From Heterotrichella gracilis (lineage: Eukaryota; Sar; Xanthophyceae; Tribonematales; Xanthonemataceae), in assembly GCA_032358255.1 (NCBI GenBank), contig JAULBX010007773.1, positions 62,001-126,000 on the forward strand: a DNA stretch of 64,000 nt. Direction: 5' to 3'. The notes under the pieces were generated by a model, which made no database searches, had not been told where the DNA came from, and saw only the letters and a program-made list of their open reading frames with translations. Position numbers and translations under genes: made by a program. Positions 14,301 through 63,300 of the stretch are shown piece after piece. Each line of letters starts with the position of its first letter. Within the stretch, counting starts at the first letter, position 1.

Positions 14301-16981
14301 ACATGTAAGAGTTTACCGTTGCACTTGGGAGAATGCCCGTGTACCAAACATGGAAGGTTTAAAATGGTAGATGCCCAGTGCCAAGTTGAAATCGTGCATC
14401 CAATGCAGGATCCGATTCAGTCGACAGTTACGACGGCCTTCAGCAGACCAATGGCGACCTGGAGACAGGCAAGATTGCCAGCCCTGAAGCGCTCAAGACC
14501 CATGGCGTGCCCACAGGAGGGGACCGGTGGGGTGCCACCTACTGGGTCCAGCTGCAGGTGCGTGGTTGCTGCCAGAGCAGTGCTGCACACATCCGAGGAT
14601 GTGCACAGCGTAGCAGGATGTAATCTGAACCATATCCACTGGATGGAAGTGTGGAGTCAATTTTCAAGTAGGGGTTAAAAGGCAGGGATTTGGTGGACTG
14701 GTTTGCTGTCTATCAGGACTAAGCCAAACGTCAAAGTTCTAGGCAAAGCCCAAAGACCTCTAAATCACCTTTGGCAAGTTTTTGATATAAAGTAAATATG
14801 CACGGGCGCACAGAATCTGTCTCACATCCAATTTGCTACTGCAGCATCTTCCGCTAGCCGATTGCCCCAGGCGCACTAACTTAGAATTTTCGCCCTGTTT
14901 GCAGATACTGTTCATCCGCTTCATCCGCACCAGGAGGTTCCAGTCGCTCAGCACGCAGGACTTCATCCAGTTCATCTCCATTGGTGTGCTGGCTGGCCTT
15001 TTCTGGTGGCAGAAGGGTGACACCGACACAGTGGCGGGAGCCAGGGACACCATCGGTGAGTATCACCATCAACGGTGGTGTACGTGCATTTTGCTGACCA
15101 GTAAGCATTTGCGCAGCCGTAAAACTGTGATGATTGTACATGTCCCAGCATTGGTGTGCATTGCTTGCACAGGGTGCTACATGTCTCCTAAGCAGTTTGG
15201 CTGTATTTTATGCAGGGCTCCTGTTCTTCGAGATGATCTTCCTGTCCTTCAGGCCCCTCTTCTCTGCCCTGTTTACCTTCCCGCAAGAGTATAAGATGCT
15301 GCTCAAGGTGTGTGCTGACAAGTTAGGGTTTGGGGTTGTTGGCGATTGTAAGTTGCTGTTCTGAGAGGTTTAGGGTTTGGGGTTAGTGTAAATTTGAGTT
15401 GCTGTTCTGGGAGGTTTAGGGTTGGGGTTAGTGGCAAATATGAGTTGCTGTTCTGGATGCTGTTCTGGGAGGTTTAGGGTTTGGGGTTGGTGGCGAACAT
15501 GAGTTGCTGTTTTGGGAGGTTTAGGGTTTATGTTTAAGGGCGAGTATGAGATGCTGTTCAAGGCAAGTGCTGACAGCACTGTGATTGGTGGTTGTTTTGT
15601 CTGCGTGTGTCTGTCACAGTAGTACTCAAGTGCCTGGCGCATTATGGTTTCTTGTAGGATTGGCACGTGCACATGTCACGAGAAGCGTGTTCAATGAAGC
15701 ATCAGCCGTTACTAGAGCAGGAAAATCATTATGATATTGTTGGCGCATGATTTTGTGCCCACCATTGCATGCCTGATCCTGTGTAGGAACGCTCCAGTGG
15801 GATGTACCGGCTATCAGCCTTCTACTTTGCACGACTGGCCTCTGACCTTCCCATGGACTGCGCCATCCCCACCCTATTCGTCATCCTCGTCTACTTCATG
15901 GGGCACCTCAGGATGACCGCCGCTGCCTTCTTCTCTAACTACTTCACAGTCATGCTGGTACGGAAGTGCTTGGGGCGCCCAATTGACCAACCTTGTTTTG
16001 GTTGGTCGACCTGAATTTTGTATCTAGAGCCATAGTAAAGACTCGCAAGAATCCATCTGTTGTAATTGCAGTGAAGAACTTTTTACCAACAATCTTTCAT
16101 GAAACAATCAGCAAAAACTAATGCAAAACCTGGATTTGCTTCTGTTTCATCCATCTGTCCGCTAAAAAGGATGTGAAGGTAATATACGTCCAGATGCGTG
16201 TGCTGTACTTAGTTATTCGATCTGTTTTCTTGCAGATCGCATTCGTGGCGCAGAGCTATGGCCTGCTGCTGGGAACCGTGGTGATGAACCCCAAGACCGC
16301 GCAGATGATGGCTTCAGTCCTGGTGCTTGCCTTCATGCTGGTTGGTGGCTACTTCATCCGAGACATCCCTGCCTGGATCTCCTGGGTCAAGTACCTGAGC
16401 TTTGTGTACTACGGATTTGGGCTACTGATGTTCTACGAGTATAACGGCAGGGACCTGTACAGCTGCACCACCACGGGCGATGTGGGAGGGGCCACTGGGC
16501 AGTGCATCCAGGTATGGCAGGTTTGCTAAGTTGCAAGGAATGTGGGAATGGGAGGTTGCCATCATTTGTTGTAACATCTGCAATGAAATGCGTAGAGACA
16601 ATGTAGATGCAACAACTGGAAATATAGTTGTTCCACCTATGCATTCCATTAATAGCATGCTCATCTGCATGCTATGCGTCATGAACAATGGCCCAGTGCA
16701 GTGCATTAATGATTACCGCAATCGTAGTGGTGCATGTGCTAAACTGCGCTTAATGAACTGCTCTGAGCATCATTTTCTGGATTCTGCAGATTGACGTCAG
16801 CGACCCCCAGTCCCAGCCTGCCACATGCCAGCTGATTGACCCGCAGCAGGGGCTGGGGGTGAACCAGAACCCCAACGACGCTGGCCTGGCAGTGCGCGAT
16901 GCCATGATCTTGCTGGCCATGCTGATAGTGCTGCGCGTGCTGGTGTATGTGGCGCTGAGGAAGAAGACGGCGCGCGTCTGA
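11367..16981 (+). CDS. ABCG (WBC) half-size ABC transporter
   Basis: Thirteen exons: 11367-11687, 11929-12041, 12233-12317, 12586-12742, 12924-13029, 13380-13658, 13888-14042, 14409-14557, 14905-15055, 15216-15307, 15787-15957, 16236-16511, 16790-16981; all phases agree, 748 residues. The nucleotide-binding domain comes first, as in ABCG: Walker A GPSGSGKT (126-133), Q-loop region GFVLQDDLL, signature ISGGERKR (233-240), Walker B ILFLDEP (253-259), H-loop TIHQPSS. The membrane domain follows with hydrophobic segments [60 protein letters not shown] and a last one near [17 protein letters not shown], with a Cys-containing extracellular loop between (LYSCTTT, ATCQL). One NBD and one TMD mean it must pair to work. 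Substrate cannot be read from sequence. Start at 11313 is an alternative (18 more residues). Confidence 0.93.
15288..15585 (+). repeat. Tandem copies of the ABCG exon 10 end joined by telomere-like DNA
   Basis: The exon 10 end (AGTATAAGATGCTGCTCAAG, then the donor and GCTGACA) is followed by four degenerate 45-60 bp units. Each has a GAGTTGCTGTTCTGG-like core and an AGGTTTAGGGTTTGGGGTT tract. A final copy at about 15542-15580 is much closer to the true exon end and ends in TTCAAGGCAAGTGCTGACA, a second potential GC-type donor. All of it lies in intron 10. Confidence 0.8.
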
Positions 16982-39838: not shown

Positions 39839-40090
39839 ATGTCTTCCACCACGTTTCAAAACCCCAACGCTTCACCAGAGGATCAGTTACCCAGGCAGCC
39901 ACGCAAGCCCAGTCTGCACAGACTGGCCCCGCTGGTGTATGCGCCACTGCTGCCACTGGTGCGCATCGGCCTCAAGGGGAGGGTCTCGCCAAGAACCAGG
40001 GACACCATCTTCATTGGTATGGTCCTCACAGCCTTGGCCCATGCGGGATACATCATGTCTAGTGACTCAACCATGGCACAGCGCGTATGA
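39839..40090 (+). CDS. Small hydrophobic ORF of unknown function
   Basis: An 83-codon frame. The first 35 residues are polar and Pro-rich. Then come a basic stretch (LKGRVSPRTRD) and a probable membrane segment (TIFIGMVLTALAHAGYIM), ending SSDSTMAQRV. I do not recognise the family. Its 3' half is the first unit of a tandem array that runs on downstream. An intron-containing model that uses a later copy as its real end is possible, since the frame in the last copy (near 40675-40811) is also open. Treat as tentative. Confidence 0.4.
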   Translation: MSSTTFQNPNASPEDQLPRQPRKPSLHRLAPLVYAPLLPLVRIGLKGRVSPRTRDTIFIGMVLTALAHAGYIMSSDSTMAQRV

Positions 40091-40760
40091 GGACGCTACC
40101 ATGGCACGCGTGGCCGTGGGTGGGGCATGTGGCGCGGCCACTTCCAGGTCCAAGCCGATACTGGACTGGGCCTGTGGCAAAATGATGGTGGTAGGCCAGC
40201 GCAGCAAATATCTATTGCAGCAGTCGCAGTCTAGTCTTTGGAATGGACTCCACAGTCGATGCGGGATACATCATGTCTAGCGACTCAACCATGGTCCAGC
40301 GCGAATGAGGACCCTACCACGGCACAGCAGTGAGCGCCGCCACTGTTGGGGCATGTGGCACAAGCATTTCCAGGTCCATGCCCGATGCTGGATGGGCCTC
40401 TGCCAAAGTGACGTAATGGGCCAGCGCTGCAAAGATCTATGCCAGTAGTCACAAACTGGTCATTGGGACGGTCCACACAGCCTTGGCCCAAGCGGGCTAA
40501 ATCATGTCAGGAGACCAACCCATGGCACAGCGCGTACGGGGGCACTATCATGGCAGTCGTGGCCATGGTGGGGCATGTGGTGCGGACATTTCCAGGTTCA
40601 AGTCGATCTGGGCTGGGCTTATGCCAAAATGTCGTGGTGGGCCAATACAGCGATGATCTCTGGCAGCAGCCGTAGTCTGTCCATTGGGATGGTCTCCATA
40701 GCCTTGGCCCATGCAGGCTATGGCATGTCAGGTGACCCAGCCAGTGGCACAGTGGTTATT
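40005..40760 (+). repeat. About 3.5 tandem units of 215-230 bp
   Basis: A marker sequence (ATCATGTCTAGTGACTCAAC and variants) occurs at about 40051, 40269, 40501 and 40721, each preceded by a GCCTTGGCCCATGCGGG-like stretch (reduced in the second unit) and followed by a GGCACAGCGCGTA-like one. Copies differ by many substitutions, so the array is not recent. The first unit overlaps the end of the 39839 ORF including its stop codon. Confidence 0.8.
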
Positions 40761-45554: not shown

Positions 45555-47239
45555 GCTGGTTTTCCACCCGCTGCACTGGGAGCGAGAAGGAGGTGCTGGG
45601 CCAAGCTGCAGGGAATACACTTTGCGTGTTGGACACCCGGTAGGGCAGCCCATTGCAGCATCTGCAAGCAATGGTTGGAGCTTTTACCGAGGGTCAAAAT
45701 CTTACAGCACCCAACCCAAACCAGTATCTCCCCTTGTGGCCTGCGTCGCTCTGTGTCCACACTAGTTGTGGTTGTTGGGAACTAGCTAGTCCAATTTTGA
45801 ACAGCTAGCCAGGTCTAGTTCAGTCTGGCTGTTCCGATGAACAAGCCGCGAAGGGCTGTGCTGTTGTGTTGCGTATTGCGCAGTGAAAGTGCAATCAAGA
45901 CCACGCTTTCCAAACCTGCGGTTGACTGGATGCCCACTGTTGCGTCCAACCTCGCAAGTTTCAGGGGTCATTGCAGCACCTGACTTGCCAGGTGCCTTAC
46001 CCTCCGTTTCACGCCCACAGATTCATTGACAATGTTTGCTGATGCCTTGGCATCAAGCTGCCCATTACTGTGTTAGCTTAATAAACAGTTTACCAAAAAA
46101 AGCTCAGATGTCTACCTTGCAATCTAATACAGTAGCAAGGTGCAACTGCAGTTGCTTATGTACACCCTTCCCATGGTCACTTCCTTTATCATCATATTGA
46201 GGATCATCCATCATGGCAGCAACCTTGGGCTTTAAAATTTACACTGGTTTGATGTAACCCCACCAACCCTCTGAGACAATGTAACTGAAATTATTGCAGC
46301 AGGCATGCGAATAATTTATCGGTGGGCGTGGACGTGCATGCAGAAATAGCTGCTGCAGTGCCCAGCAGCCCACTAGTGTGTTCTTGTGATGCGTAGCATG
46401 TGCATTGCACATCACGGCAACCAGGATAGTATTACGAAGACAGTCACTGCATCAACCAGGCTGATCACCATGCGTCTCCTCACTTGGAAAGCTGTTACTA
46501 ACCCGCTGACAAGCACACTTCTCGCTGCACCAGATCAACACTTGTCTCACCAAGCTGCATGAAAGCATAAAATTCATAAAACTCACAGACCCTGATGTTA
46601 GTGATCCAGGTTCAGGACCTCCCCATTGGCTGACATACACACACATCCTCTAGCTAGCAGCAAACCAACCCCAACAGGAACGACACCAACACCATTCCTC
46701 TACGTGGAACGCGACGTGTCCATTGTGCTCAATTTTACAGTACTCACGAGCCCATTAACAGATGGGCTCAAATCCACACCCCAGCGATTGTTTAAATTGC
46801 ACCAAATGCTCCGTACAGTATGCTACTTCAACCTAGGAATACCAGCCCTGCTGCACTGTGAACAAGGCCCCACCCACACCCACTTCAGTTCTACAACCCA
46901 GCCCACAGCAACGCCAATACACACAATCCCAACTGCCCCATACTGCAACTGTCGCCCTAAAGCCAACCAGGCTCAAAGCCACATTCAACTCTGCCGCACC
47001 CACACAGCCATGCATAGCTGGTGCATCCCAGCCCCCTCACACCCTCCCCGCCCCATCCCAACCCACGCCAGCTACAACTTTGCCACTGCTCTCCCCCCCA
47101 TGCGCTGCACCCATGCTGCCAGTACAGGCCATTGCACCCCCGCCTCGTCCCAACCACTCCCTTACCCCTTGCCCCCTTTCGCACCAGCTACGATCCACCA
47201 CCACCACTCTTACCCCCCAAACCAGTCCACCCCTTAGCA
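45555..47239. other. Intergenic, with a C-rich strand-skewed tract
   Basis: Lies between two convergent genes. From about 46640 to 47235 the plus strand is strongly C/A-rich and G-poor. It carries two overlapping long frames (46626-47237 and 46858-47247) that look compositional: Thr/Pro/His/Ser-rich, no domain. On the M16 sense strand this is G-rich 3' flanking DNA. No other gene seen. Confidence 0.5.
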
Positions 47240-50200
47240 TCAGCTGAATTCGCTACCGGATGCCCCCCCGGCCTGTTCATGCAGCGACGTCATTGCCTGC
47301 GCCAGGTTGATGGTCTGCGCAGCTGCGGCGATGGCGGTGAGCATGGATAGGCTCCGGGGGTCCAGCGCCGGATCCTGGGTTGAGGTCCCGTTGCCTGGGA
47401 AGATTGTCGGGGGAGACGGAGCCTCGGGAAGCCCCTGCAGCAGGGCCATGGGTGTCACAACCAAGGAAAAATTGTAGGTTAGAACTACTAACAAAGTAGC
47501 AGGTCTGGCAACCAGGGCAATGGAAGGGGAGGATACATACCCTACTGCCTGGCCAGAACATTGCATATGGGTTTAAAGCCGGAGCACAGAGAAATGCATC
47601 AAATAAATAAGTACAGCAAGGACGAATTGCTCTGAAGTTGTGAATTATATAATCCGGTAGATGATACTGAAGTCTTTGACAATAATGTTATATGTACACC
47701 CCACCACCACCGTGCGCACCTGTGGGATGTTGGGCACGTCCCGCCCGCTGGTCCCTATGCACGTGAAGATGTGTTCATCACCCAGCTGGAACTGGCGGTA
47801 GGCGTCGTACACATCCTCCACCGTTGCTGACTCGTACATCGCCTTCAGGTCCCGCAGGCAGTCCACTGTCTTGTAGGGCACCGATCCAGACATGAGGTGG
47901 GTGAGCAGGCCCAGCCAGTAGTGGTTGTCCTGCACGCATGAGGAGGGTGGGTTTAGGGTCGAGGAAGGTTTTGAAGTGCATTCGACGTCCCGCAGGCAGT
48001 CCACTGTCTTGTAGGGCACCGACCCAGACATGAGGTGCGTGAGCAGGCCCAGCCAGTAGCGGTTGTCCTGCACACGTGAGGGGTTAGGGTTCCAGCACAT
48101 CAAACACACTCCTTACCAAACACACCAATGCATGCAGACCAAGGCAACTGCACAATGCCCATGTACATCCAGCTGATTACATGTCGGTGTATCTAAGTCC
48201 TTTCCCATCCCATTTTGCTGCGTACATGCAAACTCAAACCCTACAACCCACCTCGAGGTCCGACTCCAAACCTACACCCTAACCCTTCAAACTAAACCTT
48301 GAAACCACCTTGAGGTCCGACTCGTGCCGCGTGAGCAGCGTGCGCTTGGCCCTCAGCAGCTCCCGGGTGGTGATGGGCTGCACACCCACCTCACGCAGCA
48401 CGCGCAGGCTGGCAGTCATGGCATCATGGATTTTCTGCAGGGGAGGGGTTTAGGGCTTAGGGTTTAGAATTTAGGGTTCGCAGGCTGGCTGACATGGCCC
48501 AGTACCACGTGGATTCCTGCGGGGGGGCCAAAACTTAGCACTGGCTCCAAAACCCTAGCCCTACACCAACCACATGTGCCTGCGGCATACAGTTGACATT
48601 AACCACAAAACCTGGTCCCTAGCCCTGCTTCCAAAACCCCAACCCCTAACCACCCACACCTGCCTGCGGCATGGAGGTAATCTGACCACAAACCCTAGCC
48701 CATGGCCCTAAAACCCTAGCCCCAAATCGCCCACACGTGCCTGCGGCGTGGAGGTGACGTTGACCACGAACCAGCCCGCCTTCAGGCGGTCAAAGAGCGA
48801 GAGGTCAAAGGAGACGTCGTAGGTGAGGCCCAGGGCGTCCCGCACGGTGGTGAACAGGCGCCCATTAATGACCTCTGTGAGGAGGCCCATGGTGACGCTG
48901 GGGTAGAGCGGGTGCGACCGGAACTGCTGCCGCGCTGCACAGACAGGCAAAGAACATAATAGGATTGTTGAATGGGAAGGGAGATTCTTGATAAGTGTGC
49001 TGTTATCCCGTGTTTTATTGTTTGGTACAGGGTGCGGACAGGCGCCTGTTGATGACCTCTGTGAGGAGGCCCATGATGACGGTGGGGTAGAGCGGGTGCG
49101 ACCGGAACTGCTGCCGCGATGCAGGGACAGGCAAGGAAACATATTAACTACCTTAGGCAAGGGTCAAAGGGGACTATAACTATTCTGTCATAATTCCATC
49201 ACATGGCCTGGGGTGATGCTGGCGCGCTGCGTAAAAGGGAACAACATGGAGTTCACAAGAGCCATCCCCACCCAGTACAGCCATTTTGCAAATGACATAG
49301 GGTTTGCGAATGCAAACATGCATGTGCCCACCCCATGAGCAAACCCCATACCTGCACGCAGCTCCACTGGAGTTACTGAGGGCGATGGCACGATGACTAC
49401 AAGTGGCGTGACATAGTCTATGGCAAACCTCAAACCCTGAACCCTAAAACCCAAACCCCAAGTAGGGTAACCCACATACCTGCGCCCAGCTCCACTGGAG
49501 TCATAAAGGGCGAGGGCACTGTGGGTGGCGTGACATAGTCAATGGCAAACCCTAAACCCCAACCCCCAAAACTCCAAACAGGGTAACCCACATACCTGCG
49601 CCCAGCTCCACTGGCGTCATGGAGGGTGAAGGCACCGTGGGTGGCGTGACAGGGTCAGAGGGCGAGGCCTGGAGGGTGGGGTCGAACGCCGCCCACCGGG
49701 TGGGTGAGGGGCCAGCGATGTAGGCGCAGGCGCGCTCATCCGAGTCCTGCGAGGGAATAATTGCAAAGGGTTAGGCTGCAAGGGATATTTCTGAAGAAGG
49801 TAGGTGCTGCCCATATGGTTCATATGCGGGCACTCAGCCCACATTATAAATTAAAGAATATTATGACAAGCCTACCTCCACAGAATGGATACCACACGCA
49901 GCTAGGGCCTAGCAAGTCCACTCTTCCCCCATCAGCAGCAGCCTCTCCCCACCACCCACCTTTAGATGCCACACTTGGCGGCGCAGCTCAGGCGGCGGCT
50001 GCGCAATCGCCACCGGCCGGTCGGCCAGCGGCGGCGCCTCGGGTCGCGGCGCCACGCACCCCATGTACCTCAACACCAGCCCCTCCACCTCTGCAACATC
50101 AATGTCTCCCACCACCGACAGCTCGATGTTGCCAGCGTGCAGCTGGTCCATCACGGCCTGACGCATACCCTCTAGGGTCAGGGCCTCAATCTCCTCGGGG

Positions 50201-53200
50201 CTGGGGTCCCGGAAGCGCCTGGAGCAAAGGAAAAGTAGTCTAGAAACATAAATGAAGTGTAAGAGACGTAAATACACGTATTCCACTATGTCATTAGTCC
50301 ACCACAGGTTGGCTCGTGCTCTCTTGGTTATAAAGTGTCAATCTCCTTGAGCTGGAGTCATCAAAGCCTGGCGGGGAGATATTCGTGATAAAAAACTGAG
50401 AGATAATAGCGGACGAGGATGGGTACCCACCTCAGAATCCTTATTCAAAACATGGGTCAATTCTCACAGCATCCCTGCCTCACCTGTCCTTGCCCAGCAG
50501 CGCGGACATGAGCCTGTCTGCCGTGCTCCTCTCCAGCGACTTTGGCAGCGAGCGGTAGTGCGACAGGTACATCTGCTTGGCGCGCTCCATGGCGGTGGGC
50601 TCCCACCTTGGCTCCGACAGGAACAGGTACAGGAGCTCCAGCACAGATTGGAGGCCGCCATCGCCTGGGGGTAGGGGGGCAGTGTAGTGTTGGCATGTGA
50701 TCAGTGTGGCGCAATTAATAACACCACCAAGTGAAGCAAAGTACGTGAGACTCAAGCATCAGATCTGATCTCGATACCCAGCAAGCTGGACATCAAGCGA
50801 TACCATGCACCACAACAGACAGCGAGTGGGAGACTTTACTGCCTGTCCAGCGCACAACTGCAAAGCGGATGTCCATAACCATAAGAACCACAGCCACAGA
50901 TTTGAAGTGATGATATTTTGCTATTTACTAACAAATAAGTACGTTTTCTAACCTGTTAATAAAACATAGTTCTTAACAACAAAAACAGTGCAATGTTCAC
51001 TCCCTGCTGCGCGCACCGACAGCAAAGTGGAAGTCCATGACTATGAACTCCTCGTCGGCCTCCAGCACGCAGTTGATGAGCTTGCTGATGCAGAACAGCT
51101 CAATCTGCTCGCGGCTCCAGTGGCCCACGGTGCCGCTCTCAGACAGGGTGCGCGTGCCGATGCTGACCACGCCGTTGCCGCTAGGGCCCACGCCCTCACC
51201 TGCAAGGAAAATAAGTCAGATTAATAAATATTTATCTCGTGTGGACAAGGTGAGAAATCGAGTATAATGGTGTGCCTTCTGCCAGTTTTTTTAGGGCAGC
51301 GCAAGGAATTTTCTGGCCCACGGTGTCGGTCTCAGACAGGGTGCGCTTGCCGATGCTGACCACACCGTTGCCGCTGGGGCCCACGCCCTCGCCTGAAAGA
51401 TGGGCGCAACTGAGACGTCAATTACTTGCTCTCATTCGTGGGCGACATGACAATTTAGGTACCCAGTGCTGAGGTCCATTGTTGCGGAAGACACATTTGG
51501 ATGAGTAGTGTTTAGTAATGTGCTTGTGGTGGTGAATAAATTATCAGTAGATAATGTGAATGTTGCAGGGCATGGCACGGGAGCAAATAATTCCTAGAGA
51601 AGCGTGCTCAGCCATCCCTCGCTCACCTTCACAGGCGCGCCCCCCCGCGCCCACTAGCCGCAGCATGGCGGCGCTTGGCTCGTTGGCTGTGTGGCGCATG
51701 TTCACGCGCACCCCGTTGGAAAGCACGCGCTGCACGATGCCGGTTTCCGGGTGCGCCGGCGGGTGCGCATCACCCTGCAAAGTGATTAAGTAGTGATTAG
51801 CAAGTGATATTTAAGTAATTGGCAAGTGAGGGATACCGATCTTGGGGTGCGCTGGCGGGTGCGCATCACCCTGCAGAGTGACCAAGCACCGAGTACCGAG
51901 GGAGGGGTAAATGAGTGGCAGTGATGTAGAGAGAAATGCCGGTCTCAAAGAACACTGACAGCGAACGACTGTTACCCTGCACCACATCAAGTGACAAGTG
52001 GCTCAATTCCCCACCGCCAGTGTTTTCCACATATACCCCCACAGCATTGTATGCCGTTTGCAAGTGCACCCCCCTCCCTTCCCCCATCCAATCCCACCCT
52101 GTCGTCACTCACGTCTGGTCCCACAGCCACAAAGTGCGGTTGCCGCTCCTCCAGCAACCTGGCCAGCTGCTCCTCGCCCAGCAGCCTCTCAGGCACATCC
52201 ACATCCGCAGCAGCCTCAACCTGCAGTAATATACGATGATTAATAACATTTTAAGGTTACGACATTATGATGGAAAGATTTACAAGATTTTATTTCACAG
52301 TCACATAATGACTGTTTTTTGAAGGTTTCATTGAACAACTCCCAAAAATACTATTGAAAGGAAAAACAGGTGTAAGTCAACACTTCATCATCATGATCCC
52401 CAGGAAGGGTACAAAGCGGCCAAATGAGCAAAGCCAAGGACGAGCAAACAGGCCCGCATGGGCACACGATCCAACAACACCAATGTACATGCCCCCACCT
52501 CAATCGAGTCCTCTGCCAGGGCAGCTGCAATCTCCTCTGGCTCCAGCTCGAATCGAATGGCGCCCTCGGGGATGTCCCCGTCGCTCTCCTCGTCCACTGA
52601 GGGCAGCGTGGGCGCAATGGCGGGGTCCATGTGCTCAGTGGTCGCCAGGCTGGCGCCGCGCTGCATTGGGAGGCCGCCACCTGGTGGCGGACAGCGGAGA
52701 GGTCATTTTGGTATCACTATTGTACATATGAAACACTATACTATTGGTGGCCTGGCTGCTGCAAAGGCGGCCACCTGGCAGAGGGCACCGGGGTCGATAG
52801 CGCTAATGGAGGTATAGGCGGTTTGACACCTAGTTGCTGAAACGCACATCAAACCATCCCGAAGTACACATGCACAGCTGAAGTCGCCTCCAACCACACC
52901 CGTACCCACACACCTGCGCTGCTCTGCCCGCTTTCATCCACAAACTCTGGTATGCAGGCCACGATGGAGGTGGTGCGGGTGGGCCCCACCGAGCCATACT
53001 TCTCGGGGTTGAGCGCCACATCCTCTGCCAGCTGGGCCTCCTTGCCGTAGTGCGACACGTAGGAGAGGAGCGAGGCACAGATGGTGTTGACGTCGGCCAG
53101 GGTGATGGTTTCCGCCATCTCCACAAGCACATTGTGGCCCTATGGTGGGGAGGGGTGGGGTTGGTGTGGTGGTGTGGAAAGGGGGGAGGGGAGGGGTGAT

Positions 53201-56200
53201 TCATGGGGAGGAGGGGATGCAGTTAGGAGAGCAGCAAGGCGCATAAGACAAGGTCTACATCCGCCAGGGGTGATGGTTTCCGCCATCTCCACGAGCACGT
53301 TGTGGCCCTGTGGTGGTGGTGAGGGGGGTGGTGCATGGTGAGGGGGAAACGCAAGTGGGGGCAGGTGGGGAGGCGGACATGGCTCATGTTTGCACCATAG
53401 AGCTAAAAAATCAACCCTGGCCATTCCACTAGGGTTTAGGGTATTTGCTGGAATGCATGTAACTAGCTAACCAACTGACTTAAGGTTAGCTAGTTTTTGC
53501 CCCCAAACGCACCTCGCGCGTGTCTGCCAGGGTGTGGTTGAGCGCCATTGACTCCATCACAAAGTCCAGCTGGTCAACGCTAGGCACGCTCTCGCCCTGC
53601 TCCGCCAGCTGGCCGCTGTCACGCAGCAGCGCCGCGCGGTAGCGCTCCAGCTCGCCACGTGTCACGCCGTACTGCTGCAGCCGCCGCACCTCCTGGACCG
53701 CCACCTGGCAAGGGGGGGAAGGGGGGGGCGGTTAGGGATTATAAAGAGCTTGTACCTGGTGCAACACTAATGCTAGAATGCTGGGCACCATCAACCAACA
53801 TCACCTAGAACAACATCTATGTCGCCACCACCACCACCACCTACTTCACACAGCCCTTCGTTACCTACCAAACCCCACCACCCACCATTATGGGACCGTG
53901 CCAGTCCTTTGGCTTCAAAGTGATTGTGGAACGGCAGCCCCTGCTTGCCCTGTTCAAGTGATTCAGCTAGATTGCAACCAAAAATCACCACCACCATCAC
54001 CACCACATGCACCACACCCCAACCACCACCCACCATGATGGCGCCGCGCCAGTCCTTGGGCTCTGAGGTGATGGTGAGGGTGGACACAGAGCACCCCTCC
54101 CGCGCGCTGTCCGAGTGATCCAGCTCTAATGCACTGACCACCACCACCACCCGAACCTCTACCACCACCACCATAAGCACCACTACCACCACCCCCACCC
54201 CACCCCACCCCCACCCACCATGATGGCGCCGCGCCAGTCCGTTGGCTCTGAGGTGATGGTCAGGGTGATGGTGAGGGTGGTGATGGTGACACCGAGCACC
54301 CCTCGCGCGCACCTACCGAATGGTCCAGCTCTAATGCTATGACCACCACTACCACCATCGCCACCACATCACATGTACTCCACCCCACCACAGCACCACC
54401 ACCCACCATGATTGCGCCGCGCCAGTCCTTGGGTTCCGAGGTGATGGTGAGGGTGGACACCGAGCACCCCTCCCGCGCGCTGTCTGAGTGGTCCAGCTCA
54501 ATGGCGATGAAGGGGGGGTCGGCCTGCACGTACCTCGAGTTCACGCGGAACTGCAGCACCGACAGCATGATGCGCACCATGAAGGCGTGCCTGCGCAAGG
54601 AGGGGGTGAATAATGAAGGAAAGGATGGATGACTGGGCGTACACGGGGATGGGGAATGGGTGCATGAGGGGGGGGAAAGGATGAGATACAATGCATGCAA
54701 AAGAGGGGAGCATGAACAACCAAAGTGCTTATGAAGGGAAACATGCCAACATGCCAAGCCACAAGGGGAGGAGAGTGGCGGTGACTGAAGGAATGGCAAT
54801 CACTATTGCAGCAGCTCTTGAACCCTTGACATGGAGGCATTTCTGGCAGACATGTCAACCCCGCCACCCCCGGAACCCTGCGCTCCGCCCCCAAGATGCG
54901 TCTCCCCAACTTCCCAACCCCCTTTGGCCTAACCGCTCCCTCACCTCGGGTCCTGCTTAGTGGTCACCAAGCACGCCAGCAACTTGCAAAATATAGCCAA
55001 CACAGAGTATCGCAGCACATTCACTTTCAGCCACCAACCACACCGTAACCCTGCGCTCCCCCAAAACACACACCCTAAATTCATGGGTAGATAAATCTTA
55101 TCCCCGTCCTCACCTGAGGTCCTGCTTGGTGGTCACTGGGCGCGCCGGCAGCTTGCAGAATATGGACAGCATGAAGTGCTGCAGCAGGCGGTGGCGGAAC
55201 ACCTTGACAGGCGCGGGGGCCTCCTCGGGCCAGGGGGACACGCCGAAATTGTGCACCACGGGGGGGCGCACCTGGAAGAGGGAGAAATGGGAGGGGGGGG
55301 GTCACGGATTGGGCGTGGGTGCATGATAAATAGACCTGGTGGCAGTTGTGGGGGTCTGCTCTGCGTTAAAAGTGTGCCTAACAAGGTGCGCCACCTTGGG
55401 GAAATCCCTGCCACCTTGACAGGCGCAGGGGCCTCCTCGGCCAGGGGGAAACACCAAAATTGTGCACAACGGGGGGCGCACCTGGAAGGGGGAGAAATGG
55501 GGGAGGGGGGGATCACAGGTGGGGTGTGGGTGCATGATATTTAGAGCTGGTGGCCAATGCGGGGTTGTGAGGCAGGGGGGACATGCAGGAATTGTGCATC
55601 ACGATGGAGCGCACCTGGGATCCCCTTCCAAGGGGTGAGGAAGCGATCAAGGGTGGACGTGGGGGCATGGCAGGTGGAATTACCGGTGGAGCATGTTCAT
55701 TTGAATCACACAACAGTTGCGACAACAAGAGCTGGGTGAGCTATCAGTAACTCCCACCAAAACCCAACCTGGGCAGCTACGTTGCACGCAGGAAAGAATC
55801 CCGCCCACGATACAAGCACACTTGCGTGCTGACCTGCGAAGGCGTCTGCACCAAGGTGTCTGCTGACCCCAGTAACAGCCTACGTAGATCAGCACCCAAG
55901 CGTGCTTGCAGTAAGGGTGGGGCTCAATGCTGGGCGCAGCAAAGCTGCTCAGGTGGGGATTTGTGGGAGTAACTCACACACCCAGCTCTAGTGTTGGGTT
56001 GTGGTCCCAACATCCCATGCATTGACCAACTCCCACCCCCGACCCCCATCCACGCGCTGCTTGAGCGCTCACCCATCCACCCCATCGGTACCGAGCGCCC
56101 CATCGGTACCGAGCGCCCCGCCGCCAATGCCATCATGAATGTTTCCTTTACCTGGCCACAGCCATTCCCAATGCACCACCCATTGCCTGACACCGCTCCA

Positions 56201-59200
56201 ACATCCTAACACAGCCCCCCATGCACTGACCACCCTCAACCCCCACCCCACGCACCAGGTGGCGCTGCTTGTGCCCCATGACATCTGCCCAATCGGTATC
56301 ATGCCACCCGTCGCCATTGGCTGCATCATGAGCGGATTCCTTACCTGACCACATCCGCTCCCAAACCCACCATCCATTGCCTGACACCGCACCCGATGCA
56401 CTGACCACCCACCCCCCTACCCCCTTGCCACCACACCATCGCACCCCACCCACCAGGTGGCGCTGCTTAAGCACGTTCACATCCGCCTGATTGGAACCCT
56501 ACCCCCTGCCGAACTTCATGTCAATTCTCATACCTCACCACCTCCGTTCCCAATGCACCATCCATTGCCTAACACCGCACCTAATGCATGGACCCCTCCT
56601 GTGACACCCCACCTTCCCCTCCTATGACACCCCACCCCCCACCCCCCCATCCCACCCACCAGATGGCGCTGCTTAGGCACGCTCACATCCGCCCCATCGT
56701 GGGCGTGCGCCCCATCGCCGTTGGCCTCCTGAGGCGGCGGGGGGTCGTGGTATGCACGAGGGACCCTCCCGAAGATGTTCTCGATCAGGGTCCTGCAGCC
56801 CTCCACACCCCCATCCAGGTCGCCCACCACGTACAGGGTGGCGTTGGCTGGGAAGTACCACTTGCCCCAAAACTCCTTGAGCGCCTCCGCCTTCCACTGC
56901 TTCACCTGGAGGGGGCATGCATGTAGTTTGTCAGCGCATTTTTAAAAACTAGGTCATGCCAGTTGAAAGGTTTTCCTCATTTTGCAATGATTAGCTGTGC
57001 GCCGCGCATCTGTAACCATACAGCATTTATCCCTTTCGCTGTCACAGGACAAAACTGTCTATGCCCGTCATGGCAGTCATGTAGTATCCTCTCCTGGGCG
57101 TGCTTGTGGCCGCAGTGTCATTGAGGTGACTTAAGTGCCGTGAGCCGCACCTGCTCCGTCTTGCCGATTGGGAACCTGCTGCCCAGCGCGTTCTCCTCGT
57201 GCAGGTACTGCAGCAGCTGGCAGTCCACCCGGTACTCAATGGTGTTCATCATCTGGGCCTCGGCAAGCACAGCCCTGCGCTCCTTCTCCACGCGGCTGGC
57301 CAGGAACTCCGGCTCAAAGGCAATCTCAACAAGCGCGTCCAGCACCTGGCGGGGGTGTGGGGTCAGCACACAGGGTGGTGGGGTTGGGGATGGGTGGGTT
57401 GCGGGGGATCTGATTGTGACTGGGACCTATATGCAAGTACTGCAGCTCATGCATGGATGCCGCCCGACCTCTCCCCGTCCCACCAATGTGCGCCAAACCC
57501 TATACCCTTGATGGCACATCTGCGACAGCATCATCTCCCCTGGGTTTCCGTTTGCCCCAGGCACATGCACACAACCCAACCCTGCACCCTACAAACGCAC
57601 CTGCGGCAGCAGCGGCACCCCTCCTGCCATGCCATTGTGCATTGAGATCAACCCCTAAACCCTAACCTGAAACCCTCCTCGGCGCACCTGCGGCAGCAGC
57701 GGCTCCCCAGAGGTTCCGTTCGCCCCAGGCGCGTGCGAAAAACCCTAAACCCTAACCTGAAACTCTAATCGGCACGCACCTTCGGCAGCAGCGGCTCCCC
57801 AGAGGTTCCGTTCGCCCGGGGCGCGTGTGAAAAACCCTAAACCCTAACCTGAAACCCTAATCCGCACGCACCTGTGGCAGCATAGGCTCCCCCGTGTTTG
57901 CGTTTGCCCTTGGCGCGTGCACGTGGAACACCGTGTGGTGGAAGTCGGTGTAGGCGTTGGAGCGCGAGCCCGTGCCCAGCAGGATCTCACGCTTCTTGCT
58001 GCCCAGAAACGTGACGTGCTCAACCAGGTGAGCCACGCCTTGCTCGTCGGGGCCCTCGTCCACAGACCCTGCACGGATTAGGGTTTAGGGTTAAGGGCTT
58101 AGAGCCCTTAGGATGCTGGTAAAGAGTTTCTAGGCCACAGAACCTGCAGCGCGGCCGTGGTTTGGACCTGCAGGTGCCAATCTTTGCCTGCGCCGCTGCC
58201 GCTGGTGGAGGTAGTGGCCGACATGAATTTTCCCTTGGGGCCATGCCCCACAACTGCCCTCCGCAGCTATGCACTCCTGCCCATCAACTTGTGCATAACT
58301 TGCGGCAGAGGGTGGACTTGCCACAACCCAGTCCTCAGCCGCAACATGCTTGCTGGTAGCGGCAGGTCAGGCACCGTCAGTGATCCCACATCATGGCTGT
58401 GCTACCCACACACCGCCCGCCAGCTGGGTTTGAAGGAACAACACAATCCCAACCAGGTTGCAGGACAGCAATGTGGATGGCCAATGTGGACGCGCACCCT
58501 CATGCACCTCCAGGTGTATGATATGCGCCCTAAACCCTAAACCCTACACAGGCGCGCGCGCACCTGCGTGGACCTCCAGGTGCGCCTCGAAGCGGTTTGG
58601 GGGCACCTTGTTGGGCATGATCACGTAGTTCAGCCCGTTCTCCAGCTGACCCACGTGCAGGTCCTTGTGTGCGGGGATGGGCTCAAGCAGCAGCTGCTCA
58701 ACATCCACCGCGCTCTCAGCATCAACCTGGGCAACGCGGAGGGAATGCAGCGGTGATAGCGGGCCACTGGAGTGCATGATGGCTGGTAAGTGACCCCATG
58801 CATAGCACCAGCACCACCAAATGTTGGATGGCACCGCCCAGGGCTGCATAGCACTGACTATGGGCGCATGGTACCCATGCAAACAAGCGCAACCATGCCC
58901 GCCAAGCGCAGCCATGCAACCATGTGAGACCACCGATAAGGGCTTTATAGCACCCTCCACGACTGCACAGGACCCAGCAGGGCGCCCCAGCAACCACCAA
59001 CGTCAACCATGCAACCATGAGCAACCACCACCAGGGCTGCGTAACACCCTGATTGCACAGCACCGTCACCACAGGTGATGGCTGCTGCCGCATGCTGTCT
59101 TGGTGAGCCCATGGCGTGAGAGGGGTAGAAAGTGGGTGCCAGGCAACTGCATGCGTTGCTGTACCAGTGTTGGTGACGTACCAGTGCTGCAGCAACGATG

Positions 59201-59734
59201 GTCTTGCTGCCCTGCTTGCGCGCCACAATGCATACACATGGCTGACCCAGTACGCCTGAGTCCCCTCCAAGAAATAGCTTCCTGAAAGCTGGCCCGGCCT
59301 TTTTGTATCTGATACAGCACACAGAAAGCTGGTTTTGAAAGCGAGTTGATACAAGTCCAAGACTGCCTTGGACAAAAAGCAAACAGGTGGGTGGGCCAAC
59401 CCACGACTTAGGCTGTGCATACGACTACTCCACTTTGGTAACCAGGCAAACACGATTGCAACGAGTGCTTGCAAAACTAGTTATGCATACATATGCATAT
59501 ATATGCGGGTCCTAGTTTTCACCTGCGGTCCTGCACAGTCGCGCGTGTGCCTAATCGCCTGAACTGGTTGGTGTAGGCCGCCTGGAGTGGCTGTGTCGAA
59601 GCCCTACAGGGTACTGAGCTAAGCACCCTCGAGGATCGAAGCGTTGCCCTCCCCAGGGCGGTACGCCTCCCTCTCCCCGCAAGCACCCCTTGTGCAGAGA
59701 GGGTGGCTGAGTGAGCCCCGACCATGGTGACCAT
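47240..59734 (-). CDS. M16 family zinc metalloprotease (PQQL-like), organelle-targeted
   Basis: Twenty exons: 59734-59523, 58766-58564, 58068-57872, 57345-57151, 56905-56660, 55271-55114, 54590-54407, 53704-53513, 53139-52914, 52680-52499, 52220-52113, 51774-51627, 51199-51017, 50664-50484, 50218-49960, 49746-49596, 48934-48741, 48434-48309, 47929-47720, 47434-47240. All phases agree; 1249 residues. The Ser/Arg/Ala-rich, acid-poor first exon fits a plastid or mitochondrial leader. The inverted zinc motif is HLVEH (His152, Glu155, His156), with the third ligand Glu233 exactly 77 residues on (RRAVLAE). The C-terminal half has plant-homologue landmarks GTRTLSES, WSREQIELFCISKLIN, YLSHYRSLPKSLERSTADRL, NIELSVVGDID, FTTVRDALGLTYDVSFD. 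It degrades small peptides by family knowledge. Exon 17 ends in a GC donor. The acceptor of exon 2 is less sure. Exon 19 may start 138 nt earlier (see findings). Confidence 0.9.
47850..48067 (-). repeat. In-frame duplication of the start of M16 exon 19
   Basis: The first 80 bp of exon 19 with its acceptor (GACAACCACTACTGGCTGG) recur 138 nt upstream as GACAACCGCTACTGGCTGG with very few changes. Both carry a CAG acceptor, and the frame between them is open, so either can start the exon. The upstream choice adds 46 residues, including a second copy of LTHLMSGSVPYKTVDCLRD. Confidence 0.85.
48490..49125 (-). repeat. Copies of both ends of M16 exon 17 in its flanking introns
   Basis: The exon 17 end with its GC donor (plus strand CACACGTGCCTGCGGCGTGG) has degenerate copies at about 48575-48610 and 48655-48700. 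The exon's start (about 105 bp, plus strand GGCGCCTGTTGATGACCTCT...CTGCTGCCGCG) is copied at 49021-49125 with its acceptor. TTTAGGG-like and CCCTAA-like tracts lie between copies. Confidence 0.8.
49345..49600 (-). repeat. Two extra copies of the M16 exon 16 end with donor
   Basis: The plus-strand block CATACCTGCGCCCAGCTCCA...GGTGGCGTGACA occurs at about 49591 (real exon), 49477 and 49349. The two spurious copies are followed by CCCTAAACCCC-like DNA, with a period of about 115-130 bp. Confidence 0.85.
51306..51400 (-). repeat. Copy of the M16 exon 13 start
   Basis: About 85 bp of exon 13 from the acceptor inward (plus strand GACAGGGTGCGC...GGGCCCACGCCCTC) recur in the upstream intron at high identity. 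A similar shorter copy of the exon 12 start is at 51838-51882. Confidence 0.8.
53255..53312 (-). repeat. Copy of the M16 exon 9 start
   Basis: The plus-strand block GGTGATGGTTTCCGCCATCT...AGCACGTTGTGGCCCT recurs about 160 bp upstream of the real exon start on the sense strand, again with an acceptor-like edge. Confidence 0.75.
53875..54410 (-). repeat. Three degenerate copies of the M16 exon 7 end in intron 7
   Basis: The real exon 7 end (plus strand CCACCATGATTGCGCCGCGC onward) has copies beginning at about 54218, 54036 and 53882. They keep the CACCATGATGG...CCAGTC...GAGGTGATGGT pattern and decay with distance. ACC/CCA microsatellite DNA fills the gaps. Confidence 0.85.
54941..55625 (-). 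repeat. Copies of both ends of M16 exon 6
   Basis: A copy of the exon end with donor lies at about 54941-55015 (plus strand CTCACCTCGGGTCCTGCTTA). Copies of the exon start with acceptor lie at about 55400-55490 and 55560-55625 (plus strand GGGGCGCACCTGGAAGGGGG and relatives). Confidence 0.8.
56030..56660 (-). repeat. Three copies of the M16 exon 5 end, period about 190 bp
   Basis: The plus-strand block ACCAGATGGCGCTGCTTAGG...ATCCGCCCCAT of exon 5 recurs at about 56455, 56257 and (weaker) 56048. Each copy is joined to a second shared block (TACCTGACCACATCCGCTCC...CCATTGCCTGACACCGC) at 56533, 56343 and 56151. Confidence 0.85.
57525..57871 (-). repeat. Three copies of the M16 exon 3 end separated by CCCTAAACCCTAA
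   Basis: The exon 3 end with donor (plus strand CGCACCTGTGGCAGC) recurs at about 57778, 57686 and 57597 as GCACCTGCGGCAGCAGCGGC-like blocks about 45 bp long. Between them lie telomere-like AAACCCTAAACCCTAACCTG tracts. The array period is about 90 bp. Confidence 0.9.
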
Positions 59735-60389
59735 GGTCCTTGCTGGGGCAGCCGATGCCTCCTGAAGCTGTTGAAACCCCCCTTGATATGTGCTTAAACA
59801 GTGCTGCTAGGTTGGCGCAAGTTCATGCTTGTCTTGTATCAGCTGGTTGTTGCATGCACTGGCGCCCTTTGCAACAAAACTTCGAGAAGTACCGCTGCTG
59901 GGAAGACTGCCCAGTTCGTTGGCACGCGTGCGCTTTGCTAACAAACCCACCGTTCCAACCAGTAAATAGTAAAGGCGCTTTTAGACAGCGTTGTAGGAGG
60001 TGTAGCAGGTGACAGACACTGCCTTCACCTCTTAAAACATCGCTCACAAAGTTCCTGGCCCGGCCTCCGCCCAACATCCCCGTTTGCAACGCTATTATAC
60101 CCGACAGCAAAATAGTTCAGATATTTTGTGGACGAGCAGGCTTGGCAATGGAGTTCAACCACTCACCACCGCGCTAGGCAGTCCCCATTTAGTGGTCTGT
60201 GTTTGCATAGGCTGCAGATACCGGTAGTCGTTAGGGTCTGCTGTTGGCTTCGTGGGTGGCCTGACGCAGTGGGTGGTGCACAACCTGCATGCATGCATGT
60301 GTGCGCAGCCTTGACTTGACCTGAACCGCACCGAAGGCTGCACCCAACTTGCTCCATAGACTCGCAATTTTGAGGCAAAATGTGATCGA
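59735..60389. promoter_or_regulatory. Divergent intergenic region, M16 protease and NYN gene
   Basis: 655 bp between start codons, or 706 bp if the NYN gene starts at 60441. Both promoters are expected here. Only a GCATGCATGCATG run at about 60287 stands out. Confidence 0.4.
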
Positions 60390-63300
60390 TTGGAAGTATT
60401 GGGTAGGCATGGTGGCGCTGCCGCGAGTGGGATCTATTGGATGACATATGAAGCCTTCTTGCGGGCCACACAGCCAGGGCAGCGTTTAAGCCTCAAGTCA
60501 AGGGCCACAACTGTGGGCTGGGCCCGGTCTGCAGTACTTGATACAGCTGGTTTGCGTCGGCCGCGTGGTCTGACACGTCTCCTAGTTGTGTGTGGGCCGA
60601 AGAAGAAGAAAAAGGGGGCTGGGGCTGGGAGCGGGAAAGGCACTCCTGAACCACCACAGGTACTTGCCCACAACTCCATTTCTGCTTGCACGTCTTTTGG
60701 GTGCATAGCTGCAAGGCATCGAAGACCACCCCGCTCCACCTTGCTGCAGGATACCCCTGCTCCAGCCCGTATCCTCCCTGGTAGTATGGGTGTCAAGCTC
60801 CAGAAGCAGATTGTCCAGGCAAGTTTGGGGCTGCGCTCTCCTAGTGGGTGTCAATTCCTTCCAGTTCCAACCATATCGATTCTGGTATTACCAGAAGACT
60901 TGCATCCATCCCGTCGTGCAATAATGTGCTTCAGGAGGTGCGGTCTAAACCCTAAACCCTAAAACAGTCATGTGCTCCAGGTTATGCGGTCGCCCTCGCC
61001 TACCATTGCTACTCCCACCTCCTATCGCAAGAGGGGGCTGCCAACAGAGGAGTTCAAAGAAGCCAAGAAGCAGACCATTCAGCAGATGGAAGCACAGCGG
61101 CTGGTCAAGGGGAGCGCAGCACTGGCCAACCTGTATGGGACAAACGTGGGTGGTTAGGGTTTAGGGTCTAGATTCTAGGGTTCGGGCAGCTCTTGTCACA
61201 GTTCTATGTTGGAGCCGACATATGCGCCGGGGGAAATAGTGCGTGAAACGGAATGCAGCATTGGGTAACTTGCTTGGGACGGAATTGAGCGACAGCCATA
61301 TTTCACTGTCTATTGAACAAATGGGTTGGGTTGAAACCTTGAAGTCTCAACTTGTATAGTTTGTATGCAATGGAACCGCTTCAACATGCTGACGAGTCGT
61401 TGTCTCCGCGCAAGGCAAGGACAACCCCCCCGTGCTGCTGGTGGACGTCATCAACCTAAACCCTAAACCCCAAACCCTTAAACCCATCTCCTTGTTTCCG
61501 CTGCAGGGCAAGGACAACCCTCCCGTGCTGCTGGTGGACGGCTACAACTTCATCAACCAGTGGCAGCCCACGCTGGGCTTGCTTGCAGATGCGAATGGGG
61601 GGATGAGCGGTGCTCGGGACAAGCTCATCAGGGAGCTCGAGGAGTATAGCCAGTTCAGGAAGTTGAAGGTGGTGGTTGCTTTTGACGCCATGGGGAGCAC
61701 AGGCACACCTACAACCAGGTGAGCGCCCATGATGCATGCTGCATGAACACGCATGGTTCTGTAGCAGGCATGGGTGGCAGAGCTAGTGGTGAGCGCCCAT
61801 GGTGTATGCATGGGAGGGCTTGCGGTGTCCTTGTGCAATGGAACTTCGATGTCTGCCTGGGCTGCACTGCCCAGGCCTCTTTTGTCTGGTATTGTATCGG
61901 TGAGCCCGTGTGGTTGGTAAATAAGTGGGTTTGTAATGCATGACTGCACTCTGCACCGAGATTGGCAATGCCAACATGCGAAAGTGGAGAATGAGTGGTT
62001 TGCACAGCCAGGCCTCTGTTGTACCCTTTCTCCATGTCGAAGTTAACCAAGGGAACCGCTCAGGTTATAGACTAAAATGGAAGTGTATACATTTATTTAT
62101 ATATATACTGACACGCATCATTTGTTCTGTTATTCTGTTCTGTTGTGTACGTTTCTTTTGTTGTATATACGTAGAGTCAATAAATCTTCAATCTGTATTC
62201 ATTCTCTGTTTTCCTGTTACAGAGAAACCACTCCCGGTGGCATCGACGTGGTGTATTGTGTGAACGAGGAGGCAGACATGTTCCTCACATCAGAAACCAA
62301 GGTGCTGCTGGACAAGGGGTGTGAAAAGGTGCGGCAGGGCCCGGTCTATAGTCATACGAGTAGAATAACGATAGTAATAAGTATAATCATAAATGGTATT
62401 TGTAGCACCCGCCGCGGCATTTATGAACAAAGGCTCTGGCTCCATGTCCATGCGTGCTCCTCTTGGGCTGCATCCACCAGCACTGGCCACTCGCAATGCA
62501 GTGTAAAGTGCGTCGCACGACCCGTTGTTTAGTGCCAGCGCTGCATGATGTTTGCCAACATGGTACTCATTGATGCATGCACGCCGACTGGGTCCCAGGG
62601 GTTCCCCGCGCTATCACCCGCCCAGGCAAAGGCTCGCTCAAGCTCCTGTTTGGGGTTTAGGGTCTTGCCTTCTGTCTTTTGTGAGGCCAAGTCGTGACTG
62701 CCTGCAAGTGTTTGTGCCCTGGAGCCATCACGTTCTGTAGGATTTAGGGCCAGGATTCTGCCTTTTGTGTGGCCAAGCTGTGCCTGCCCTTCAGCTTCAG
62801 GGTTTAGGGTTTTGTGTCTGCATGTTGTGATGCAAACTGTGGTTGTCAGGCAGGTGTATAAGGCCTTGAACAATCAGAACTTCAAGGGTTTAGGGTAAAG
62901 GGTTTTGGTTCCTGCTCCTTGTGCAGCCAAGCTGTGGTTACCTGCAGCTTCAAGGTTTAGGTTTTCCAGGGTTTATTGTGTAGGGTTTTGGCTCCTGCGA
63001 TTGTGAGGCCATGCTGTGGCTGCCTGCAGTTTAAATTTAGAGTTTCTAGGATTAAAGCTGCAGTTGCCTTTTGTGAGGCCATGCTGTGTTTGGCTGCAGG
63101 TGTATGTGGCCTCCAATGACCAGAATGTGCAGATCTCAGCAATGGCCAACAACGCTTCCCGGCTACCAATCTCCGATTTGATACGAGACATGGACAAGGT
63201 AGGGCCTGACCAGTGCAACCACGCTCTGGGTACCTGTGGGGTGAAGGGGTTAGGGTTTGGTTGAAAGCCTGCATATGCTGTGAACACAGTCGTCACTGCT

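Follow-up and report, generated by a model that had tools for sequence, protein, structure and literature searches.

Exon edges copied into adjoining introns, and their association with telomere-type repeats, in the alga Heterotrichella gracilis

The window, a 64,000-nucleotide stretch of the Heterotrichella gracilis genome (bases 62001-126000 of contig 79, JAULBX010007773.1), contains an M16 zinc protease gene in which exon edges occur again as degraded direct copies within the adjoining introns. Such junction duplication is widespread in the genome, with the M16 gene as a hot spot, and the duplicated edges are associated with internal tracts of the telomere-type repeat TTTAGGG/CCCTAAA. Studies of how introns grow are hampered because the sequence from which added intron DNA came can seldom be identified. 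In many genes of this genome both the origin of a copy, an exon edge, and the seam, often made of telomere-type DNA, are directly legible, and since coding constraint acts on one of the two copies, their divergence can serve as a clock. If the proportion of duplicated edges outside M16 (13/160) is extrapolated, datable events in this one genome may number from hundreds to thousands, and they would link the lengthening of introns with break repair and perhaps with the telomere machinery.

Preference of duplications for exon edges

The M16 gene (PqqL-like; 47240-58732, minus strand) was modelled exon by exon and contains 19 exons and 18 introns, with 3507 nt in frame. A 195-aa piece of its product matches Pfam PF00675/PF05193 and PqqL relatives in the PDB. 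In and around the gene (46900-59600), 21 direct and one inverted local high-scoring segment pairs (HSPs) were found, and an exon edge lies inside a copy in 20 of the 21 direct HSPs. When the exon map is shifted circularly, 11.6 ± 2.2 HSPs span an edge, and a value of 20 is reached in 4/5000 shifts. Twelve distinct M16 edges lie inside a copy; together with three exon starts of the NYN gene further along the window, they bear out the claim of a preliminary description that at least ten edges in these two genes have copies in the adjoining intron.

All twelve M16 edges lie on the minus strand. The start of exon R (47849-48081, edge 47929) is accompanied by a copy at 47987-48081 that is 94.7% identical, with sense CCCTAAA in the spacer. 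The start of exon P (48854-49146, edge 48934) has a copy at 49038-49146 (89.9%), and that of exon L (51121-51399, edge 51199) one at 51314-51399 (91.9%). Copies of the starts of exon K (51736-51881, edge 51777) and exon H (53060-53349, edge 53139) are located at 51832-51881 and 53224-53349, and the start of exon E (55200-55618, edge 55271) has two copies. Among the exon ends, that of exon E (54939-55171, edge 55114) has a copy at 54939-55002. The end of exon P (48529-48777, edge 48741) is followed by degraded copies (two HSPs) and telomere-like DNA, the end of exon F (53864-54510, edge 54407) by several additional copies and the end of exon D (56026-56725, edge 56660) by several degraded ones. 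The end of exon O (49342-49657, edge 49596) is located within an array of ~116-bp units that hold telomere-like DNA, and the end of exon B (57513-57920, edge 57872) within an array of ~92-bp units that include exon end, donor and TTTAGGG.

The comparison was extended within this single genome (68.5 Mb, 903 contigs). Exon-level positions in further genes came from whole-genome searches with six Pfam families. The further loci were picked around conserved genes rather than at random and comprise 20 stretches of up to ten kb (two shortened by contig ends), followed by 13 and then nine smaller ones; the total sequence analysed is 317 kb. Contigs C1, C111, C68, C442 and C222, whose long intronless matches to several families suggest a bacterial origin, were left out of the locus sample. 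From exon matches 104 introns were inferred, adjacent matches more than 25 profile positions apart not being joined; 24 failed score, length or gap filters, and the 80 kept form, with the 18 of M16, a homology-based set of 98 introns in 32 gene models, with 196 edges. All gene models were built by the analysis itself from genomic sequence. The whole 317 kb was also annotated with our own gene finder (splice-site matrices, a 3-periodic coding model and Viterbi decoding), through which, or as plain DNA, loci L042-L050, lying outside the homology-based set, were included. For the 98 modelled introns, which were also its training set, it gives the exact position of 91 donors and 96 acceptors. Its output includes numerous very short exons, which a length cut removed, and at times junction copies called as exons, a problem of which the homology-based introns are free. 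Repeats of low entropy were filtered out before counting.

In the homology-based set, 25/196 edges have copies, and M16 is an outlier with 12/36 against 13/160 elsewhere. Any junction repeat at all is present in 22/98 modelled introns, so that the earlier wording of introns "built from" junction copies was overstated. A search up to 200 nt from the 98 introns yields 41 direct HSPs, a small number of them counted from two adjacent introns, and no inverted ones. They cover a donor edge in 24 cases, an acceptor edge in 12, exon alone in four and intron alone in one; this sole intron-only HSP sits in the exon F array, and there is hence no independent intron-only event. Across the 317 kb, 64 direct-repeat clusters were found, the best HSP lying over an exon edge in 51, in an exon in seven and in noncoding DNA in six. 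Random placement of the same repeats yields 32.9 ± 3.7, 8.3 and 22.8 ± 3.6, respectively, and 51 was reached in 0/500 permutations. Random placement of copies relative to exon edges, the outcome named beforehand as speaking against a junction process, thus did not occur in the sample. The excess holds without the window (35/44 clusters over an edge, 21.8 ± 3.1 expected) and persists with a minimum exon length of 60 or 90 nt. The repeats have a median unit of 80 bp and identities of 71-94% (5th-95th percentile), and 91 direct HSPs stand against one inverted. This orientation argues against switching to the opposite strand, and template switching, one of the routes proposed at first, was rejected as the main one.

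Survivorship alone could in principle concentrate visible copies at edges: duplications would fall everywhere, those inside exons would be selected away, and copies of constrained exons would stay recognisable longer than intron-intron copies. Two observations agree with this account. Mismatches in the copied exon parts number 30/401, 35/401 and 73/396 at codon positions 1, 2 and 3 (19 of 24 events, five rows with collapsed array alignments having been dropped), a pattern expected under nearly neutral drift, with the intronic copy free to change and the real exon changing mainly at third positions. Exon parts of the copies also last longer, with a mean identity of 88% against 83% for the intron parts in the nine events with at least 20 nt of copied intron. 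A simulation with uniform placement, exon-internal removal and decay, however, expects 33-37 of 57 clusters to be noncoding-only, whereas six are seen, the simulated classes being slightly stricter than the observed ones. Since the intron parts are still ~83% identical, intron-only duplications of equal age should be visible. Survivorship also leaves the telomere link and its polarity, described below, unexplained. We therefore regard it as an unlikely sole cause, and, as far as the gene models allow, the edge preference looks like a real bias.

Two further tandem repeats were noticed. The largest noncoding-only tandem array of the window (40011-40752) has a 221-bp unit repeated 3.3 times. At 8922-9665 of locus L024, a tandem unit of ~383 bp (82% identical) exceeds nearly all others in length and seems to contain ~90 bp of exon end and ~290 bp of intron-like DNA.

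Telomere-type repeats, seams and polarity

TTTAGGG occurs 40 times in the window against 5.4 in shuffled sequence. Genome-wide, TTTAGGGTTTAGGG is present 5629 times, a count in which true chromosome ends are not set apart, and its reversed control five times; tandem telomere units are also present at internal sites. A telomeric 7-mer lies within 100 nt of 13/25 duplicated edges and 25/171 others (P = 8e-5), or of 7/13 and 20/147 without M16 (P = 0.0016). Three permuted motifs show no association with duplicated edges, and label shuffles within genes reach the observed association in 5/5000 cases. The proposal of a recurring process that duplicates junctions in many genes and is tied to telomere-like DNA is supported by these counts.

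The repeats are also found at the seams, as claimed earlier. Among the spacers of up to 110 nt between copies, 7/17 contain the 7-mer (4/9 outside M16), against 1.2 expected from introns without events (0/2000 as high) or 1.7 from all introns (1/2000), and a permuted motif is present in 1/17. Conversely, mutual copies flank 21/89 telomere-repeat sites (11 of 100 having been dropped as too close to a locus end) and, as a control, 21/600 noncoding positions chosen at random (P = 1e-9). Since the sites depend on one another, they were also merged into arrays, of which 16/74 are flanked, and 11/58 without the window (P = 3e-5). The flanking direct copies align over 29-205 bp, and in 7/21 flanked sites the tract lies no more than 12 nt from either copy. 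One of these sites is in locus L030 and another in the NYN gene, whose joined exons match the YacP-like NYN family. In this gene (plus strand) the tract 61455-61485 separates copies 61397-61447 and 61489-61540 of an exon start and is followed by the acceptor and exon start at 61507 (61397-61548; 0/500 shuffles as high). Two further NYN edges are similar: a copy at 60924-60945 precedes a CCCTAAA tract and the exon start at ~60981 (60924-60991; 1/500 letter shuffles as high), and the exon that begins at 63100 has degraded copies of its start and 3' splice region, together with telomere-like DNA, at 62825-63125 (0/500). The pattern reported for the ABCG gene was likewise recovered (15287-15575, plus strand; 0/500): the exon end at ~15309 is accompanied by an array of 46-59-bp units with TTTAGGG and by a recognisable copy at 15542-15575.

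Replication slippage is an alternative source of the copies. A polymerase stalling at G-rich or quadruplex-prone tracts by exon edges could recopy the 50-150 bp just made, leaving edge units that end at the barrier. The direct orientation of the repeats is consistent with such stalling, as are the higher G content of the outgoing strand at duplicated edges (0.41, against 0.31 at other edges), the short reach of the copies into the intron (at most 15 nt at 11/25 edges) and the arrays with a telomere tract within each unit. Slippage is expected to produce duplications free of filler. In a test of 24 events, the power of which is limited, 15 of the 17 spacers measuring 19-107 nt nevertheless did not extend into the flanks at 5/100 shuffles. 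In locus L011 such a spacer, without detected counterpart in the flanks, lies between copies that are 98% identical; the spacer at exon P contains another copy. Spacers without a flank counterpart speak against slippage and in favour of end joining with added filler, and as the general origin of the copies we give slippage a low probability. Where each unit of an array contains a tract, slippage at a later stage or several rounds of the process seem to have been at work.

The telomere-type repeats are oriented with respect to the exons. Of the repeats no more than 100 bp from an exon, 62/80 have the G-strand directed away from that exon, and of the more distant ones 25/47; without the window the values are 40/56 and 15/31. 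A near-absolute polarity rule was nevertheless rejected, for genome-wide the polarity at donor- and acceptor-like motifs is ~1.5 to 1. Counted as motif pairs rather than sites, so that a donor beside a tandem tract counts repeatedly and the permuted motif, not being tandem, does not, AGGTGNG is followed after 5-35 nt by TTTAGGG in 2576 pairs, by CCCTAAA in 1733 and by permuted TATTGGG in 186, and an acceptor motif follows CCCTAAA in 2161 and TTTAGGG in 1395. Backward controls give 151, 70 and 84 for the donor with TTTAGGG, CCCTAAA and the permuted motif, and 17 and 29 for CCCTAAA and TTTAGGG with the acceptor.

These motifs might instead be selected splicing elements, TTTAGGG downstream of donors serving as a G-run enhancer, CCCTAAA upstream of acceptors supplying the branch point and pyrimidine tract, and duplications being kept for spreading them. 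In favour of this view, TTTAGGG/CCCTAAA is absent from 95.6 kb of predicted exons of at least 60 nt and amounts to 1.08 per kb in the 50 bp next to exon edges (0.2-0.7 at greater distance), and the polarity is confined to the vicinity of exons, with the same direction genome-wide. Selection for splicing elements leaves unexplained why tens of bp of exon are duplicated and why copies flank the tracts, and the copies look neutral; we judge it a rather improbable explanation, more so than slippage or survivorship.

In the 98 modelled introns, G is abundant towards the 5' end and C towards the 3' end (G 0.32, C 0.34). Introns such as M16 intron A-B, which have TTTAGGG near one end and CCCTAAA near the opposite one, could therefore pair in RNA and draw the splice sites together.

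Break repair as a possible origin of the copies

Our best reading, held tentatively, is that the copies are roughly neutral recurring scars of staggered breaks at G-rich exon edges, which were filled in and joined with telomere-type filler. A staggered double-strand break would open close to an exon edge, and its two overlapping single-stranded ends would both be filled in and then end-joined, duplicating 45-190 bp (median 80) in direct orientation. Filler DNA, telomere-type repeats included, would often be added at the seam. The strand leaving the exon into the intron is G-rich, sense after a donor and antisense before an acceptor, and its 3' end would be the type of substrate used by telomerase and by CST with DNA polymerase alpha. 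In this way both the duplications and the telomere repeats would come to lie at exon edges, the G-strand of the repeats being directed away from the exon. A unit with a whole working splice site would be harmless because one copy stays on the exon and the other is spliced out, and units wholly within exons would be eliminated by selection. Combining telomerase filling with CST fill-in in this manner would explain the seams, size, direction, edge bias and polarity together. Regarding the end joining with telomerase-type additions proposed earlier, end joining with telomere-type filler fits the observations; a part played by telomerase itself, like the staggered breaks, the fill-in, the CST step and the selection, is what we infer.

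Several observations weigh against this break-repair reading. Some tracts are located inside tandem units and not at seams, and slippage could produce them. Among 25 duplicated edges, 12 have no telomere motif within 100 nt, and in eight loci fetched for the telomere repeat 0/11 sites are flanked by copies. The few clean-tract seams, judged by eye and too few to count, lack clear in-register nucleotides, the telomerase signature in PMC2246262. The genome-wide polarity given above is just ~1.5 to 1, and the telomere motifs may be present at edges for another reason, such as splicing, and simply break easily. A stronger form of the break-repair reading, in which the telomere machinery heals breaks at G-rich exon edges as a standing process, so that junctions are continually copied and introns grow by a directed, polar route, is possible and in our view somewhat doubtful.

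Components of this scheme have been described in other systems. In mammals, telomerase inserts telomere repeats at double-strand breaks and occasionally duplicates the flanks; Table 1 of the source lists flank duplication at 6/130 rodent and 4/25 primate interstitial telomeric sequences (PMC2246262, in part). The tracts of H. gracilis resemble these in having exact internal telomere repeats, sometimes with duplicated flanks. In contrast to those described in that part of PMC2246262, they are concentrated beside exon edges with polarity, and 21/89 are copy-flanked. The complex of CST and Pol alpha, which also performs telomere fill-in, makes small tandem duplications through CST-guided Pol alpha-primase fill-in at complementary 3' overhangs, as reported for induced breaks in human and mouse cells (excerpts of PMC8355091). 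Those duplications are likewise short and direct, as in H. gracilis (91 direct to one inverted, median 80 bp), but the excerpts of PMC8355091 mention neither exon edges nor seams with telomere repeats in connection with them. Two of the ingredients are already known, namely duplication that crosses from intron to exon (PMC4974935, in part) and telomere repeats left at break scars. No description of recurrent exon-edge duplication together with polar telomere repeats emerged from searches of open-access full texts, which leave out most subscription journals.

Fate of the copies and relation to intron gain

Introns with junction copies have a median length of 421 nt, against 246 nt for the others (partly by construction), in agreement with the suggestion that the copies lengthen introns. 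This differs from intron gain by tandem duplication, in which a new intron arises (PMC4974935, in part), since existing introns are lengthened here. The potato RdRp case in the same source is a duplication across an intron-exon boundary, and the present copies resemble it in that the duplicated segment crosses such a boundary. Recent intron gain of this kind, which should leave copies of one AGGT segment at both intron ends, was rejected for the loci studied, because 0/41 HSPs link a donor to its acceptor (the "both exons" class).

Introners, dispersed recurrent intron DNA found mainly in fast-evolving lineages such as green algae (PMC9860276, in part), share with the present copies their recurrence in introns. 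The introners in that source form dispersed families, whereas the copies here are local and edge-specific, and no dispersed intron family was seen among the 45 cross-locus matches in the loci sampled, 43 of which are coding and two noncoding. A mobile introner-like element or an assembly artefact is accordingly very improbable and both were rejected, in spite of splice-like repeat edges in many genes and a draft assembly of 903 contigs, as so few cross-locus matches are noncoding and the repeat identities, mostly below 95%, are unlike those of duplicated assembly.

The earlier suggestion that the copies create spare splice sites proved weak. The GT/GC or AG dinucleotide is retained in 19/25 copies, which is near the expectation for neutral drift. 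The insert length is a multiple of three in 6/25 copies, and the frame is left open in 2/25. Functional alternative exons or splice sites were rejected as an explanation, since these two copies alone would be usable without frameshift or stop and mismatches occur at all codon positions.

Two probable GC-AG introns were observed in the window. One is at 48740, where M16 exon P ends CAG|GCACGT, and the other at 60819, where an NYN exon apparently ends CAG|GCAAGT.

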